Positions 14,458-21,757 of a stretch of DNA of 60,615 nt are shown piece after piece (the first letter of the stretch is position 1; every line of letters begins with the position of its first letter). The notes beneath the pieces are model-generated. The model saw nothing but the letters and a program-made list of their open reading frames with translations. It searched no databases and was not told the DNA's origin. The position numbers and the translations under genes were made by a program. This DNA is from an uncultured Lysobacterales bacterium (lineage in GTDB: Bacteria; Pseudomonadota; Gammaproteobacteria; Xanthomonadales; SZUA-36), in assembly GCA_937927755.1 (NCBI GenBank), contig CALBDB010000057.1, forward strand, positions 1 to 60,615, read 5' to 3'.

Positions 14458-15639
14458 ATGTATAAAATTCGAACCATTAATAACCTGGCTGCAAAAGGCT
14501 TGGCCCGCTTCCCCGTTGACAAATACCAGGTTGGCCCGGATTTATCGTCTGTCGACGCGCTGATGCTGCGCAGCCACAAGCTGCATGATGAAACCGTCGA
14601 TCAAAGCGTGATCGCCGTGGCCCGTGCGGGCGCGGGTGTCAACAACATCCCGGTGGAGGACTACGCAAAACGCGGGATAGTGGTGTTCAATACACCGGGG
14701 GCAAATGCAAATGCGGTCAAGGAACTGGTGGCGGCTGCATTGTTGCTGGGTTCCAGGGATATTTTCGGTGGCATGAGCTATGTGCAGACGCTGGGAGACA
14801 TCAAGAACGGCTCCGAGATGCACAAGCTGCTGGAGGCCCGAAAGAAACAATTCGCAGGCTCGGAAATCACCGGCTTGACACTGGGTGTGGTTGGCCTCGG
14901 CGCGATCGGCGCAGTGGTTGCCAATATGGCCCTGGAACTGGGCATGAAGGTGGCTGGGTTTGATCCCGCGATTTCGATCGAGTCCGCCTGGCGCTTGTCC
15001 GGCCGGGTTCAGAAAGTCGACAGCCTGCAGGCACTGGTAAGAATTTCAGATTTTGTGACCCTGCACGTTCCGGCGGTTCCGGCGACAACAGGGCTGATCA
15101 ACAAGGATATCCTGGCACGCTTGAAGCCGGGAGCAAGGTTGCTCAATTTTGCGCGGGATGAAATTGTAGATTTGCCGGCGGTCATCGATTCTCTGGACAA
15201 TGGTAAGCTGGCTGCTTATATAAGTGATTTTCCGCACCCCGAACTGCTGGGGCGCAAGGATGCCCTGCTACTGCCCCACATAGGCGCCAGCACCAGGGAG
15301 GCGGAGGAGAATTGCGCAGTCATGGCTGCTGAAGAACTGATGGGTTTCCTGGAAGATGGGAACATCCGCAACTCCGTCAATTACCCCGAAACACAGATGG
15401 CCAGGAACGACGGATACCGGATTACTTTTTGCAATGATAATGTACCCAGGGTGCTCGGCCACGTGCTGACGGTGCTGGCCGATCATGACATCAATGTCAT
15501 TGACATGGTCAATTTAAGCCGTGGGGATTTTGCTTACAGTATCATTGATGTTGAAAGCCAGCCGGACAAGGGTGTGATGAGTGCGATAAGAAATACCGAA
15601 CATGTCATCAGGGCCAGGTTATTGCCGCCGGCGTGCTAA
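14458..15639 (+). CDS. D-3-phosphoglycerate dehydrogenase homologue with ACT domain
   Basis: A 393-residue D-2-hydroxyacid dehydrogenase. The Rossmann motif GVVGLGAIGAVVA lies near residues 142-155. The catalytic arginine is in NFARDEIVD, the glutamate probably in FPHPELLG and the histidine in LLPHIGASTREAEENCA. A C-terminal ACT-like domain follows from about residue 320. It most likely oxidises 3-phosphoglycerate in serine synthesis. The usual DVFxxEP segment is replaced by SDFPHPE, so it belongs to a different subgroup from the E. coli-type SerA at 20424-21665. Formate-tetrahydrofolate ligase follows 35 bp downstream, which links it to one-carbon metabolism. The ATG follows a weak purine stretch (GACCGAAA). 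Confidence 0.88.
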   Translation: MYKIRTINNLAAKGLARFPVDKYQVGPDLSSVDALMLRSHKLHDETVDQSVIAVARAGAGVNNIPVEDYAKRGIVVFNTPGANANAVKELVAAALLLGSRDIFGGMSYVQTLGDIKNGSEMHKLLEARKKQFAGSEITGLTLGVVGLGAIGAVVANMALELGMKVAGFDPAISIESAWRLSGRVQKVDSLQALVRISDFVTLHVPAVPATTGLINKDILARLKPGARLLNFARDEIVDLPAVIDSLDNGKLAAYISDFPHPELLGRKDALLLPHIGASTREAEENCAVMAAEELMGFLEDGNIRNSVNYPETQMARNDGYRITFCNDNVPRVLGHVLTVLADHDINVIDMVNLSRGDFAYSIIDVESQPDKGVMSAIRNTEHVIRARLLPPAC

Positions 15640-15674: not shown

Positions 15675-17345
15675 ATGCTGACTGACTATGAAATTGCCAG
15701 GCAAGCCAACGTCCGGCCTATCAGTGAGATCGCCGCTAAGCTGGGCATAGAGGAAGCGGACCTGATGCCCTATGGCGACGAGGTCGCCAAGGTAAACCTG
15801 AATGCACTGACCCGGCCACGTAAGCGGACCGGTGACGCGCGCCTGATCCTTGTGTCTTCCACTACGCCGACCTCGGCTGGTGAGGGTAAGACTACGACCT
15901 CGATCGGGTTGGCGCAGGCCATGCACAGCCTGGGTGAATCCGTTTGCCTTGCACTGCGCGAGCCCTCGCTCGGTCCCTGTCTTGGGATCAAGGGTGGCGC
16001 GACCGGCGGCGGGTATAGCCAGATAGTGCCAGCAGACCGCATCAACCTTCACTTTACCGGTGATTTTCATGCCATCACGGCGGTCAACAATCTGATTGCA
16101 GCGGTTATCGACAACCACATATTCCAGGGTAATAAACTGGGGCTGGATCCACGCCAGATCGTCTGGCGGCGGGTGCTGGACATGAATGACCGCACGCTGC
16201 GCAATGTTGTTATCGGTCTTGGCGGCAGGATGCAGGGTATTCCACGCGAAGGCGGTTTTGATATCACCGCGGCATCGGAAATCATGGCGATCCTGTGCCT
16301 CGCCAGGGATACCGATGACCTGCGTAACAGACTGGATAACATCCTGGTCGGAACGACGTGGAAGGGCGAACCGGTATATTTGAAAGCCCTGAATATCACC
16401 GGCGCCATGATGGTGTTGCTGCGTGATGCTGTTCACCCCAACCTGGTGCAGACGCTGGAAGGTGCACCGGCATTTTTGCACGGCGGGCCGTTTGCAAATA
16501 TCGCTCATGGCTGCAACAGCATTTTTGCAACCCGTATGGCCATGCATTTTGCCGACTGGACAGTAACGGAGGCGGGCTTTGGTTTTGACCTGGGGGCTGA
16601 GAAATTTTTCCACATCAAGTGCCGCTCGGCAGGCCTGGATCCCGACGCCGTGGTCGTGGTGACCACACTGCGGGCCCTTAAGTTACACGGCGGCAAGGAC
16701 AGGGATAAGCTGGAGCAGGCGGATCCGGAAGCCGTTCGGCGCGGGCTTGAGAACCTGGACAAGCATATCGAGAGTGTGTCGCACTTCAATAAGCACCCGG
16801 TGGTCGCGTTGAACCGCTTTGGCCACGACACCGATGAGGAGATTCGTATTGTCAGGGAGCGCGCGGAGGCACACGGGGTTTCGTTTGCGGAATCACGGCA
16901 TTTCACGGAAGGTGGCAAGGGTGCGCAGGAACTGGCGCGCGAGGTGATCAAATCAGTGGCGCAGAACAAGCCGTGGTCGCCCATCTACGATCTCAATGAC
17001 ACCCTGTATGAGAAGGTACACAAGGTCTGCAGGGATATGTACGGAGCCAATGACGTCGCATTCAGCAAGGAAGCCGAGCACGACCTCCACCTGATCAGGG
17101 ATATTGGCCTGAACAAATTGCCGATATGCATCGCCAAGGCACCCAGTTCGCTGTCGGACGATCCGAAACTGCACGGCCGGCCACGCGATTTCCAGGTCAC
17201 CGTCAGGAATATCCAGGTCAGTGCGGGTGCTGGTTTCCTGATTATCCTTACCGGTAAAATCATGCGCATGCCGGGTTTGCCGGAACATCCGAAGGCCGAG
17301 CAGATAGAATTATTACCCGATGGAACGGTGATTGGGGTAGGCTGA
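15675..17345 (+). CDS. fhs: Formate-tetrahydrofolate ligase
   Basis: A 556-residue ATP-dependent ligase that makes 10-formyltetrahydrofolate from formate. The P-loop TPTSAGEGKTTTSIGL is near residues 57-72. The folate/formate region shows EPSLGPCLGIKGGATGGGY-type residues and further on TEAGFGFDLGAEKF. Full length for the family. GAGGAAGCCTTCC precedes the ATG. It sits directly after a phosphoglycerate dehydrogenase homologue, and 13 kb from a formate dehydrogenase, so formate could either be oxidised or fed into the folate pool for serine, purine and methionine synthesis. purE and purK are also in the window. Confidence 0.95.
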   Translation: MLTDYEIARQANVRPISEIAAKLGIEEADLMPYGDEVAKVNLNALTRPRKRTGDARLILVSSTTPTSAGEGKTTTSIGLAQAMHSLGESVCLALREPSLGPCLGIKGGATGGGYSQIVPADRINLHFTGDFHAITAVNNLIAAVIDNHIFQGNKLGLDPRQIVWRRVLDMNDRTLRNVVIGLGGRMQGIPREGGFDITAASEIMAILCLARDTDDLRNRLDNILVGTTWKGEPVYLKALNITGAMMVLLRDAVHPNLVQTLEGAPAFLHGGPFANIAHGCNSIFATRMAMHFADWTVTEAGFGFDLGAEKFFHIKCRSAGLDPDAVVVVTTLRALKLHGGKDRDKLEQADPEAVRRGLENLDKHIESVSHFNKHPVVALNRFGHDTDEEIRIVRERAEAHGVSFAESRHFTEGGKGAQELAREVIKSVAQNKPWSPIYDLNDTLYEKVHKVCRDMYGANDVAFSKEAEHDLHLIRDIGLNKLPICIAKAPSSLSDDPKLHGRPRDFQVTVRNIQVSAGAGFLIILTGKIMRMPGLPEHPKAEQIELLPDGTVIGVG

Positions 17346-17380: not shown

Positions 17381-18037
17381 ATGAGATTGTTGTTACGTTT
17401 GAATTTATTTTACGGAGCCTTTGCCCTCCTTGTCTGGGGTGGCTACCAACTGGTGCCTGATTTGCATCGCTACCTGCCACTCGGTGTGGTAGAGACCCTG
17501 TTCAACCAGGATGACAGGGGTGATATCGGCGGTATCGTCATTCATGCTTCCAATGTAACGGATGAAGTTGGCGGGCTGGTGTGGCTGCTCATCGCCATCG
17601 TCGGCGCTGTGGCCCTGATGGTGCCGGTGTCCTGGACCTACGTGGCGGTGCGCAGCAAGGCGAAGATGGACCAGTCATTGCTCGAAACCATACTGATACT
17701 GCCGATCGCTGTAACCGGTATCGTATTGATTGTGCATAACAGCCTGGCAATGGCGTTCAGCCTCGCCGGTGTTGTCGCCGGTGTCAGGTACCGTTATGCG
17801 CTCAAGAGCACCGCCGATTCGCTTTTCATATTCATGGCAGTGGGTGTCGGGCTTTCCTGTGGCGTCGGTATGTTGCTGGTGGCCGCGGTGATGTCAGCAA
17901 TCTTTAACTACACTTTCCTGATCCTGTGGGAATTGAACTACGGTGGTTACGATGATTCAAAAACCTATATGCGTCAGAGCCCGCGTGAGAAAGAACGGCA
18001 GAAAGCCCAGCAGAAGGATACTGGTGTGTTCGACTGA
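17381..18037 (+). CDS. DUF4956 integral membrane protein
   Basis: A 218-residue protein with about four to five membrane segments (residues roughly 8-25, 66-88, 103-130, 148-175). The core AFSLAGVVAGVRYRYAL followed by LKSTADSLFIFMAVGVGLS is the DUF4956 signature. The C-terminal tail is charged and cytoplasmic-looking (SPREKERQKAQQKD). Function is unknown, but the family is often encoded near CotH-like kinases and VTC-type polyphosphate polymerase domains. A CotH-like gene lies 1.2 kb downstream and a secreted phosphatase directly follows, so a shared phosphorylation- or polyphosphate-related role is a reasonable guess. It lies 35 bp after fhs. Confidence 0.8.
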   Translation: MRLLLRLNLFYGAFALLVWGGYQLVPDLHRYLPLGVVETLFNQDDRGDIGGIVIHASNVTDEVGGLVWLLIAIVGAVALMVPVSWTYVAVRSKAKMDQSLLETILILPIAVTGIVLIVHNSLAMAFSLAGVVAGVRYRYALKSTADSLFIFMAVGVGLSCGVGMLLVAAVMSAIFNYTFLILWELNYGGYDDSKTYMRQSPREKERQKAQQKDTGVFD

Positions 18038-18064
18038 CAGCGGCAAAAGGAACCGGATACCGAT

Positions 18065-19285
18065 ATGAAATTTTCACCATTTGTATTGCTCCTGTCCCTG
18101 GTCATGGCCGGCCCGGTACAAGCCAAGGCAAAAAAAATTGACGATTACCATTGGACTGGCGTCGACCGTGTTGTTGCCATCGGCGATCTGCACGGCGATT
18201 ACGAGCAATACCTGAAAGTGATGGCTTCCGCCGGTCTGATCAATGGAAAAGGCAAGTGGACAGGTGGTGACACCCACCTTGTACAGACCGGCGATATCAC
18301 GGACCGTGGCCCGGACAGCCGTAAAATCATCGATCACCTGGTAAAACTGGCAAAACAGGCCAGGAAAAAGCGTGGTTACATTCATATGCTGATCGGTAAC
18401 CACGAGGCCATGAACGTAAGCGGTGACCTCCGTTACGTTTCCGAAGGTGAATTCAAGGCTTTTACAACGCGCAATTCCGCCGCTCTACAGCAGAGGCAGT
18501 GGGAGAGCCAGCTTCAATGGATGCGCGCCAACATATTGACCTTTGAAGAAATTGATCTTGTTGCCTACCGCGCGGAATGGGAGCAGAGAGTTCCCCTGGG
18601 GTGGGTCGAGCACCGGAATGCGTGGTCGTTCAGCGGTGAGTATGGTAGCTGGGCCAAGAAGAACGCCGTGGCCGTCAAGCTTAACGATACCATTTTCCTG
18701 CACGGCGGAATCAGCGCAAAATATTGCAAGCTGAGCCTCCGGTCGATAACTGAGCAGGCAATCGCGGCCCTGGAAATCAATGATCCGACGGTTGAAACCA
18801 TAATCAATGATTCACTGGGGCCTTTGTGGTATCGGGGCCTGGCAGAAGAGGATGAAACCGAACTGTTCAGCCAGACGCTGGACAATATTCTCGAGCGCTA
18901 CGGAGCCAGCCGGATCGTTGTCGGCCACACCCCAACGGGTGGTGTGGTATGGCCGCGATTTGACCAGCGCGTGGTGGCCAATGATACCGGTATCGCCGCG
19001 CATTACGGTTCCAATACAGGCATCCTGGAATTGACCGCAGAGGGTGCAACCGCAATTTATGGTGAGCAGAGAATTCCCCTGCCAGTGAACAACAGCGGAA
19101 GGGAAGGTTATCTGCGTGCGGTGATTGAAACCAATACTGATAATGCACGGCTAAAAGCACGGCTCGCCAAAATGCTCGCACCTCCGGCAGAAGATGCCGG
19201 TGAAACCGGGAATGGTGATGCCGATGCTCAGGATGGGCAGGAAAGTCCCGTTGTTACAGAGCCTCTCCCCGGCATTTGCCGGTAA
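18065..19285 (+). CDS. Exported PPP-family metallophosphatase, Shewanella-like type
   Basis: A 406-residue protein with a clear signal peptide (MKFSPFVLLLSLVMAGPVQA). All PPP-family metal motifs are present in order: GDLHGD (40-45), GDITDRG (76-82), GNHE (111-114), LHGG near 213 and GHTP near 290. The set resembles the Shewanella-like branch of serine/threonine or tyrosine protein phosphatases. With a signal peptide it would act in the periplasm. The C-terminal 30 residues are an acidic tail (GETGNGDADAQDGQE). The 3' end overlaps the convergent CotH-like kinase gene by 32 bp, and DUF4956 lies 27 bp upstream. The substrate is unknown; a phosphorylated periplasmic protein, possibly one modified by the neighbouring kinase, is inference. 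Confidence 0.85.
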   Translation: MKFSPFVLLLSLVMAGPVQAKAKKIDDYHWTGVDRVVAIGDLHGDYEQYLKVMASAGLINGKGKWTGGDTHLVQTGDITDRGPDSRKIIDHLVKLAKQARKKRGYIHMLIGNHEAMNVSGDLRYVSEGEFKAFTTRNSAALQQRQWESQLQWMRANILTFEEIDLVAYRAEWEQRVPLGWVEHRNAWSFSGEYGSWAKKNAVAVKLNDTIFLHGGISAKYCKLSLRSITEQAIAALEINDPTVETIINDSLGPLWYRGLAEEDETELFSQTLDNILERYGASRIVVGHTPTGGVVWPRFDQRVVANDTGIAAHYGSNTGILELTAEGATAIYGEQRIPLPVNNSGREGYLRAVIETNTDNARLKARLAKMLAPPAEDAGETGNGDADAQDGQESPVVTEPLPGICR

Positions 19286-20330
19286 TCTCTTTCTGGAGCT
19301 TTTTCGGATCGTTGATGACCTCGTAAAACTCCTCGATATACTTGATTGCAGCCTTACGGTTTCTATCGGTCAGTTTCGAATTGTCATTAAACAGTGAAAG
19401 GACCTCCGCATTCTTTTCATTAAAAAAAGCAATGTGTTGCGGCATCAGATCATTTGAAAGACAAAAACCCCGGTACAGTCGCTGGCGGATGTTGCGAACA
19501 TTCAATCCGTTTGGTGGCAATGCATAGTGCGCATTGACAAGCCCGGTTGAATCAAAATCATACGGGACGACGTACTTGGGAATTGCGTCATTTCCTGCAC
19601 CGATCAGCTTGGCATTGTGACAGCAGCTTTCATCCCCGGGCGCATCGATTGCGGACCAGTCGAGATTGCCAACCAGGTATTGAAACAGCGAAGCCTTGCC
19701 TATCGTGTCGGGATCCAGTTGCTTGTAGGGTATCTTTTCGATAGACAGCTTCTTGAGATCATTGCGCTTGGCTACATCATCCACGTCTTCGATCAGGAAA
19801 CCGAAGCGGGTAATCGACGATTTTCTTTTTTCGCTGTCTTCGTATGTGATGGTCATCGGCCTGACGCGGAAGCTGTATTCGGTGAGCAGGTTGTAGATAC
19901 GATATACCAGGAATTCCTTGATGTAATACTGTTCGTACTTGGTATTGGTATCGCAGTAGGTGACCAATTTCAGCGATTTGTTACCCCTGAACTCCGTGCC
20001 TTTCATTTTTTTCTTGTCGAAGTGGACCTTCAAAGGCGGGAAATCGCAGACACGCAGACGGCGGGTCAATCCCCGCGGCGAGACTTCCAGGTCAATTTCA
20101 TGCTGCTGTCCGTCAGCACCCGTGTAGGTCAGCCGGGCAGGGTAGAGCTTGTCCACCTCTATGTTTTTCTTGATCCTGTTCCAGGGTCCTGAGAGTGTTA
20201 CGTTCATTTCACCGGGCTCAGCAAACAGCTTAGGCGGTTTCGCGTCGCCATCTTTGGCGTAAGAAAATGGTGCTGCAAGCAGCAAACCGGTCATTACAAG
20301 GCCTGTTACGAGGCGCAGATTGGCAGGCAT
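19254..20330 (-). CDS. Exported CotH-like atypical kinase
   Basis: A 358-residue protein with a signal peptide ending near FSYAKDG. It has the CotH-kinase layout: a lysine in FRGNKSLKLVTYC (about 115-126) that may bind ATP, the helix YYIKEFLVYRIYNLL, the catalytic segment YLVGNLDW with N222 and D224, an asparagine at 239 (CCHNAKL), and the metal-binding YDFDSTG (D258, D260). Spore-coat CotH phosphorylates coat proteins; Gram-negative secreted members have no settled role. All candidate catalytic residues are retained, so it is probably active. It lies tail to tail with the PPP phosphatase (32 bp overlap), an arrangement that suggests opposing enzymes on one periplasmic target. Cysteine pairs (95, 126, 236, 237, 290) may form disulfides. 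Confidence 0.78.
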   Translation of the reverse strand: MPANLRLVTGLVMTGLLLAAPFSYAKDGDAKPPKLFAEPGEMNVTLSGPWNRIKKNIEVDKLYPARLTYTGADGQQHEIDLEVSPRGLTRRLRVCDFPPLKVHFDKKKMKGTEFRGNKSLKLVTYCDTNTKYEQYYIKEFLVYRIYNLLTEYSFRVRPMTITYEDSEKRKSSITRFGFLIEDVDDVAKRNDLKKLSIEKIPYKQLDPDTIGKASLFQYLVGNLDWSAIDAPGDESCCHNAKLIGAGNDAIPKYVVPYDFDSTGLVNAHYALPPNGLNVRNIRQRLYRGFCLSNDLMPQHIAFFNEKNAEVLSLFNDNSKLTDRNRKAAIKYIEEFYEVINDPKKLQKEITGKCRGEAL

Positions 20331-20423: not shown

Positions 20424-21665
20424 TCAGTGCAGAATACGGGTCCGGATCGTGGCCGGAATCTTGGCGAGATCCCCCATCAGGTCGCTGACATGATCGGACT
20501 CCACGTCCATCACGACGTAGCCAACATCACCATCGGTCTGTAAGTATTGCGCGGCAATATTGAGGGCCTTGTCAAAAAATACCTTGTTGATACTTTGCAG
20601 CACACCAGGTTCGTTGCGGTGAATGTGCATGATGCGACGCGTGTCCCCGTGATCCGGCAATGAGACCTGCGGGAAATTTACGGCCGAGGCTGTTGTGCCG
20701 TTATCGCTGTAGCGGACCAGTTTGCTGGCCACCTCAACGGCGATGTTTTCCTGTGCCTCCAGGGTGCTGCCGCCGATGTGCGGTGTCAGGATGACATTGT
20801 CCAGACCAATCAGCGGCGACTCAAAGCGGCCTGCATTGGACTTGGGTTCGCGCGGGAACACGTCGATGGCAGCGCCGGCCAGCCGGCCTGACGCCAACGC
20901 ATCGCGAAGCGCGTCGATGTCGACGACCGTACCCCTTGATGCATTGATCAGGTAGCTGCCCGCGCGCATGGCGGCAATGGCGCTGGCAGACATCAGGTTG
21001 CGGGTGTCGGGGGCGTCGGGTACGTGCAGCGAGACCACGTCGGATTCGGCCAGCAAGGCCTCGAGACTGTCCCGGGCCTCGGCGTTGCCCAGTGGAAGCT
21101 TGCTTTCAACATCCTGGAATAGAACGCGCATCCCCATGCTCTCGGCAATGATGCCCAGTTGCGAACCAATATGGCCATAACCCACGATACCCAGGGTTTT
21201 ACCCCGAATCTCGGTTGAGCCCGTGGCCGATTTGAGCCAGCCACCACGGTGCGCGGCGGCATTCTTCTCTGGTATACCGCGCATCAGCATGATGATTTCC
21301 GCAATCGACAGCTCGGCCACGCTGCGGGTATTTGCAAATGGCGCATTGAATACCGGTATACCGGCGTGTTGCGCGTTCTGCAGGTCCACCTGGTTAGTGC
21401 CGATGCAAAAACAACCTACGGCCGTCAGCCGGTCGGCGGCATTGATGGCGGCGGCGTCCAGTTGGGTGCGTGAGCGAATGCCGACAAAATGGACGCCCTT
21501 CAGGGCCTCGTGCAAGGCTTCGGGTGTCAGGGCGCCTGTCTGTTCCACGATACTCGTGTAGCCGGCGGCCTCGATGACTTGCCGGGCGCGCGGATGGATA
21601 CCTTCCAGTAAAAGAAATTTTATTTTTTCTTTGTCGAGAGAGTAATTTCGTTCAGAATTATGCAT
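20424..21665 (-). CDS. serA: D-3-phosphoglycerate dehydrogenase SerA
   Basis: About 413 residues and closely similar to E. coli SerA throughout: IKFLLLEGIHPRA, GCFCIGTNQVDL, GIVGYGHIGSQLGIIAESMG (NAD-binding), NASRGTVVDIDAL (catalytic Arg), DVFPREP (Glu) and LTPHIGGST (His), with a C-terminal ACT domain (MHIHRNEPGVL) that binds serine in the E. coli enzyme. It makes 3-phosphohydroxypyruvate, the first step of serine synthesis. The start at 21665 fits the family; an in-frame ATG at 21689 would add eight residues. It is divergent, 92 bp away, from a D-2-hydroxyglutarate-dehydrogenase-like gene. SerA can reduce 2-oxoglutarate to D-2-hydroxyglutarate, so the pair makes metabolic sense. Confidence 0.95.
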   Translation of the reverse strand: MHNSERNYSLDKEKIKFLLLEGIHPRARQVIEAAGYTSIVEQTGALTPEALHEALKGVHFVGIRSRTQLDAAAINAADRLTAVGCFCIGTNQVDLQNAQHAGIPVFNAPFANTRSVAELSIAEIIMLMRGIPEKNAAAHRGGWLKSATGSTEIRGKTLGIVGYGHIGSQLGIIAESMGMRVLFQDVESKLPLGNAEARDSLEALLAESDVVSLHVPDAPDTRNLMSASAIAAMRAGSYLINASRGTVVDIDALRDALASGRLAGAAIDVFPREPKSNAGRFESPLIGLDNVILTPHIGGSTLEAQENIAVEVASKLVRYSDNGTTASAVNFPQVSLPDHGDTRRIMHIHRNEPGVLQSINKVFFDKALNIAAQYLQTDGDVGYVVMDVESDHVSDLMGDLAKIPATIRTRILH

Positions 21666-21757
21666 GCGTTTTGGCCGATCCCAAGGCATAGTAGTGAGGT
21701 GTGTGATCAGGCTTCATTGTCGCGTCACGCAAAGCCCAGATCAACCGGAAATATTGG

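Follow-up and report, generated by a model that had tools for sequence, protein, structure and literature searches.

A conserved gene trio of a Lysobacterales bacterium suggests addition and removal of phosphate groups outside the cytoplasm

Do a kinase-like protein, a phosphatase and a membrane protein, encoded side by side in an uncultured bacterium of the Lysobacterales, belong to one functional unit? The question is raised by a locus within a stretch of 60,615 nucleotides (GenBank assembly GCA_937927755.1, contig CALBDB010000057.1), hereafter called the window. A first-pass annotation had described the three genes together with a tail-to-tail overlap of two of them and had read them as a possible periplasmic phosphorylation switch. 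The observation is confirmed as a whole, with three real genes as open reading frames (ORFs) at the positions given there and the kinase/phosphatase overlap found in the sequence; the interpretation is, as a whole, partly supported. The features of the locus are:

17381-18037, + strand: DUF4956 membrane protein, 218 aa, Pfam DUF4956 (PF16316), about four hydrophobic segments
18065-19285, + strand: predicted exported Shewanella-like PPP phosphatase (Shelph), 406 aa, Pfam Metallophos, signal-peptide-like start with the end ...GPVQA
19254-20330, - strand: predicted exported CotH-fold kinase-like protein, 358 aa, signal-peptide-like start with the end ...PFSYA; key residues N222/D224, H238/N239 and D258/D260, six conserved cysteines
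19254-19285: tail-to-tail overlap of the phosphatase and kinase genes, 32 bp

The phosphatase gene starts 27 bp 3' of the DUF4956 gene and runs in the same direction, and the kinase gene is convergent with it.

Linkage of the three families was surveyed in 151 genomes, that of the window included. All kinase and DUF4956 matches were counted, and phosphatase matches of at least 140 bits, which leaves 43 of the 64 genomes with any match (a second piece in G065 was omitted). A kinase match is present in 39 of the 151 genomes, all of them among the 43 with the phosphatase, and in 36 of these 39 the two genes stand next to each other and converge, at a distance below 600 bp. The remaining three are G023, with the genes on separate contigs, G042 and G090. 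On account of these values the trio is not a chance arrangement. Of the 38 genomes with a DUF4956 gene, 20 have it within 1.5 kb of the phosphatase or kinase gene. Near the pair it is a remnant in G002, G006 and G007, and in G036 and G042 it stands beside a kinase gene that does not adjoin the phosphatase gene.

For a second survey, contigs were scanned with the kinase alignment and the ORFs of the best 80 of 465 confirmed relatives were profile-searched. The two surveys are not independent, since six contigs among L001-L020, judged by their length, occur in both. The best 80 loci stem from Xanthomonadales/Lysobacterales, Wenzhouxiangella, Woeseiaceae, Sphingomonadales, Caulobacterales, Marinicaulis and others, and also hold six Bacteroidota and one Gemmatimonadetes. 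Their flanks contain the phosphatase in 52 loci, DUF4956 in 48 and both in 37. When flanks of at least 3 kb on either side are required, 56 loci remain, with respective numbers of 38, 36 and 27 and at least one partner in 47. Strains of Erythrobacter, Qipengyuania and Sphingomonas, which are not metagenome bins, are among the sources of loci with all three genes. Clustering of all ORFs of at least 100 aa in the 80 loci, performed without reference to the finding, yielded the phosphatase (52/80) and DUF4956 (47/80) as first partners once shadow reading frames had been set aside; three clusters, of 50, 27 and 10 loci, consisted almost entirely of such frames of the trio.

The arrangement of the genes differs between loci. 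Relative to the kinase gene, the phosphatase gene is downstream and convergent in 22 of the 52 loci, upstream in tandem in 15, upstream and divergent in eight and downstream in tandem in seven. Changes were counted on a quick maximum-likelihood tree of the kinase (84 rows; good support for 27 of 81 inner branches), using the 59 rows with flanks of 2.5 kb on either side. The orientation of the phosphatase changes at least five times on this tree and that of DUF4956 at least three times. The link between kinase and phosphatase therefore survived rearrangement, and no other observation speaks as strongly for a functional module as this survival of a changing gene order. The first-pass annotation had named linkage in related genomes as a test of its proposal, and the families do stay neighbours, in related as well as in more distant genomes.

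The AlphaFold2 (AF2) model of the kinase-like protein has a predicted local distance difference test score (pLDDT) of 90.4 and a predicted template modelling score (pTM) of 0.87. When the top 1000 chains from Foldseek were realigned with VIA, Bacillus cereus CotH came first (5jd9 with Z 19.8, 5jda with Z 19.4), with 268 residues of the model aligned to 5jd9 at a root-mean-square deviation of 3.3. Helicobacter CtkA (Z 12.2), PI4-kinases, Vps34 and HipT followed, with Fam20 lower. It is this realignment of a predicted model from which the CotH-type fold is derived. With a strong structural match, a weak profile match and no Pfam CotH match, the protein is predicted to have a CotH-type fold and to belong to a divergent family outside PF08757.

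Sequence conservation was examined in an alignment of 35 kinase-like proteins, the others being 28-68% identical to the window protein (one kinase, L076, was omitted; for both enzyme families, proteins above a length limit were kept and start codons were picked by script). N222, N239, D258, D260, E139 and E181 are invariant in all 35 proteins, as are the cysteines 95, 126, 290 and 353, and D224, C236, C237 and H238 are kept in at least 90% of them. Retention of N222, D224, N239, D258 and D260, as annotated earlier, is thus borne out, with four of the five invariant and D224 at the level just given. The motif N-x-[DE] ... N ... D-x-D is kept across the alignment, and the window kinase shows NLDWSAIDAPGDESCCHN ... 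VPYDFDSTG where 5jd9 has NFDGFVHN ... IPWDYDATWG. We read D224 as the counterpart of D228 in Bacillus subtilis CotH, and N239 and D258 as the CotH N and second D; the order D/N/D matches CotH, the putative equivalence coming from a motif reading of the sequences, with differing D-N spacing. According to PMC7821199, the D228Q variant of B. subtilis CotH is inactive and the kinase activity of CotH is ATP-dependent, and PMC12189002 names D166, N171 and D184 of PKA as the counterparts in CotH.

For the phosphatase, the Pfam match to Metallophos reaches 50.4 bits (cut-off 21.5). The PPP motifs are present as GDLHGD, GDITDRG, GNHE, HGG and GHTPTGG, and D41, H43, D77, N112, H113, H213 and H288 are invariant in all 29 aligned phosphatases (L077 was omitted), which is in line with the earlier annotation as a PPP phosphatase with all metal motifs. 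The nearest PDB sequences are the Shewanella tyrosine phosphatases 2z72, 1v73 and 2zbm with E values of 4.5e-36 to 2.5e-35, the next chain following at 0.0031. A profile of the 29 proteins has the same three chains as its sole PDB matches at E<=0.001, the best at 2.3e-54. Judged by this comparison, we class the protein with the Shewanella-like phosphatases as PMC535813 uses the term. That publication calls the Shewanella enzyme PPI Tyr-specific and describes inserts between GNHE and H(A/G)G; the insert between GNHE and HGG in the window phosphatase is about 100 residues long. Its C-terminal tail is variable, with a conserved Cys close to the end.

Both enzymes are predicted to begin like Sec-exported proteins. 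By a crude rule of hydropathy and small residues, applied to the aligned proteins of both families, Sec signal-peptide-like starts occur in 33 of the 35 kinases and 27 of the 29 phosphatases; the signal peptides noted earlier on both enzymes are borne out to this extent. The conserved cysteines of the kinase would agree with an oxidising compartment.

The DUF4956 protein directly upstream of the phosphatase, also claimed before, has a Pfam match (PF16316) of 33.5 bits against a cut-off of 30.6 and four 19-mers with a mean hydropathy of at least 1.5. Its AF2 model has a pLDDT of only 73.6. An assignment of function from the fold was tried and abandoned, as the best VIA match (a viral rhodopsin, Z 6.5) and the best Foldseek match (E 2.9) are unusable. 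A possible likeness to MgtC shows up in none of the structural matches listed. Through its linkage in the trio, the DUF4956 family gains partners and a setting.

That the trio is kept together in many Gram-negative bacteria suggests that phosphate groups are added and removed outside the cytoplasm. Drawing on the observed gene linkage, predicted fold, motif conservation and export-like N-termini, we lean, if only slightly, towards a module of three genes for extracytoplasmic phosphorylation and dephosphorylation, in which the enzymatic activities and a shared substrate are presumed. In such a module the kinase-like protein would be exported via Sec and would fold in the envelope with disulfides. 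Using a phosphate donor available outside the cytoplasm, it would transfer phosphate onto envelope targets via a CotH-type active site, with D224 as putative catalytic residue and N239 and D258/D260 as putative metal ligands. The exported Shelph would act as the opposing enzyme in this compartment and most likely dephosphorylate the same or overlapping substrates, so that the modification would be reversible. DUF4956 might be a partner in the inner membrane, with an anchoring, sensing or supplying role for the pair. A more specific and wider proposal, namely a widespread envelope system in which a secreted CotH-fold kinase and a dedicated secreted Shelph carry out reversible protein phosphorylation and DUF4956 delivers the phosphate donor to the periplasm or lets it pass, appears improbable to us. 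For the envelope of Gram-negative bacteria, few cases of reversible protein phosphorylation are known. The conserved kinase-phosphatase neighbourhood in strains that are not bins makes such phosphorylation, and the donor question with it, directly testable.

Several results weigh against the proposed module. On the side of linkage, 17 of the 80 kinase loci have neither partner in the flank. Of the six Bacteroidota loci, four have the phosphatase, at only 124-146 bits; DUF4956 is missing from all six, and both partners are missing from the Gemmatimonadetes locus. On the kinase tree, presence of the phosphatase changes nine times and that of DUF4956 eleven times. Of the 79 kinase matches in the 151 genomes, 43 lack an adjacent phosphatase gene; most of these are paralogs. 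Two of the 36 convergent pairs (G007 and G031) have the kinase reduced to a remnant beside the phosphatase, and in G017 (L014) the phosphatase, next to an open kinase and DUF4956, is broken up into two overlapping frames, either by sequencing error or by decay. On the side of the kinase itself, the window protein has no match to Pfam CotH (PF08757) at E<=1, and only two of the 35 family members do (best E 0.012). Foldseek with the kinase model gave no match at E<=0.001, and alignment of the kinase profile with hhalign to the CotH domains of nine loci (of 13) covered the N-lobe only, at 31% probability and an E value of 5e-4. The spacing between D224 and N239 is 15 residues compared to five in 5jd9, the ten extra residues holding the CC pair. 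We also know of no ATP source in the periplasm. Finally, the precedents do not agree in specificity, with Shewanella Shelph PPI being described as Tyr-specific (PMC535813) and CotH as acting on Ser/Thr (PMC7821199). Searches of PDB chains with the window kinase and with the kinase alignment profile returned no match either, and in the own genome PF08757 is without a match at E<=0.001. The earlier label "CotH-like kinase" thus holds for predicted fold and motif, and not for membership in the Pfam CotH family.

Other explanations were weighed against the same evidence. The substrate of the kinase may be an envelope component other than protein, namely an exopolysaccharide, a lipid or a lipid-linked sugar, with the phosphatase trimming or recycling the product, which would make the two a biosynthetic rather than a signalling pair. 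CotH, DUF4956 and polyphosphate polymerase genes accompany Pel exopolysaccharide genes in Gram-positives, as stated in PMC7112168, the structural matches after CotH include CtkA, PI4-kinases and Vps34, and the next recurrent neighbours in other lineages are an SdiA-regulated-type propeller (13/80 loci) and a family without Pfam match (10/80 loci). However, no family of glycan synthesis, and none of Pel type, was found among the three flanking genes scanned by Pfam, and the phosphatase falls into a protein-phosphatase clade whose Shewanella member PPI is called Tyr-specific (PMC535813). We regard a biosynthetic pair as unlikely. Rather improbable is the explanation that the two enzymes have a compartment and a regulon in common but act on different substrates, the phosphatase being a general periplasmic hydrolase of phosphoproteins or phosphoesters. 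The phosphatase does occur without a kinase match in four of the 43 genomes (G018, G034, G065 and G096), and the remnants in G007 and G031 and the many paralogs without a phosphatase point in the same direction, but pairing through several changes of gene order exceeds what a common compartment predicts. A pseudokinase or other transferase (for example for AMPylation), reversed by the phosphatase-like protein, is very improbable, since despite the catalytic-loop insert between D224 and N239 and the weak sequence relation to CotH, the residues N222, N239, D258, D260 and E139 are kept throughout the alignment, paralogs included, and D224 nearly so.

Does the overlap contribute to the proposed module? 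The conserved C-terminal Cys of each protein, C405 in the phosphatase and C353 in the kinase, is encoded there. Among 39 convergent pairs from both locus sets, 31 overlap and eight do not; after removal of the six shared contigs, about 33 distinct pairs remain, of which 26 overlap and seven have a gap. An overlap of 23 bp recurs in 16 of the 39 pairs. The first-pass annotation had suggested that the antisense overlap could link expression of the two genes. This suggestion was dropped, and with it the overlap as a regulatory device: gaps occur in the seven pairs mentioned, in 30 of the 52 named loci that have the phosphatase the arrangement is not convergent, and the stem-loop at the window locus folds no better than shuffled sequences (z -0.38). 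As a separate observation, the overlap holds the perfect inverted repeat CCGGCA TT TGCCGG (+ strand), which codes for the C-terminal Cys-Arg of both proteins on opposite strands.

Compared to known systems, the window kinase shares its predicted fold and the order of the putative catalytic D, N, D with the CotH spore-coat kinases of Bacillus (5jd9/5jda, PF08757). Unlike these, it has no PF08757 match, an export-like start, conserved cysteines and a longer D-N spacing, and it is found in Gram-negative hosts with a phosphatase next door. According to PMC7821199, phosphorylation of the coat by CotH was thought to be possibly irreversible for want of a phosphatase, an opposing enzyme for CotH itself not having been known. 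The phosphatase shares PPP metal motifs and the long GNHE-HGG insert with the Shelph/SLP group, which includes the cold-active protein tyrosine phosphatase of Shewanella (1v73/2z72, its closest solved relatives), and differs from this group in the linkage to a kinase gene and in the variable C-terminal tail with the conserved Cys. In streptococci and clostridia, CotH, polyphosphate polymerase, DUF4956 and DUF4832 adjoin Pel genes, as reported in PMC7112168. The clusters described there and the trio have a CotH-type kinase and a DUF4956 membrane protein in common; unlike these clusters, the trio lacks VTC, and Shelph stands in its place. A description of the kinase-phosphatase pair was not found in the part of the literature searched.

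Co-occurrence of CotH-type kinases, DUF4956 and VTC, which the first-pass annotation had mentioned, holds here for the link between kinase and DUF4956 and fails for VTC. The VTC polyphosphate polymerase (PF09359) has no match in the own genome and was found in one of the 61 genomes searched (own included), so that it was rejected as a hidden fourth member. The single match is in G007, whose kinase and DUF4956 are decayed. In this genome, which belongs to the same genus, a kinase remnant of about 35 residues and a short N-terminal remnant of DUF4956 accompany an open phosphatase frame (L072:3313-4867).

Further genes border the trio in the window:

14458-15639, + strand: D-2-hydroxyacid dehydrogenase, left flank
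15675-17345: formate-tetrahydrofolate ligase, between the left D-2-hydroxyacid dehydrogenase and the trio
20424-21689, - strand: second, different D-2-hydroxyacid dehydrogenase, right flank

The dehydrogenases and the ligase say nothing about the function of the trio. The SdiA-regulated-type propeller was considered as an obligatory member and rejected, given its limited occurrence in the named loci (six proteins were checked by Pfam) and its absence from the own genome. The recurrent family, whose members gave no Pfam match where tried, occurs in the loci L117, L124, L125, L126, L136, L143, L144, L150, L152 and L160 and carries the motif VHGRxFKP or a similar one. This motif may point to hydrolases. 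Among the loci inspected, the gene stands directly beside the kinase in L117, L124, L126, L143 and L144. The own genome encodes three kinase paralogs, L061 (C71), L062 (C60) and L063 (C50), which are 61%, 36% and 31% identical, respectively. None of them is beside a phosphatase gene; they adjoin DUF4136, DUF1638 and YNCE-propeller genes.

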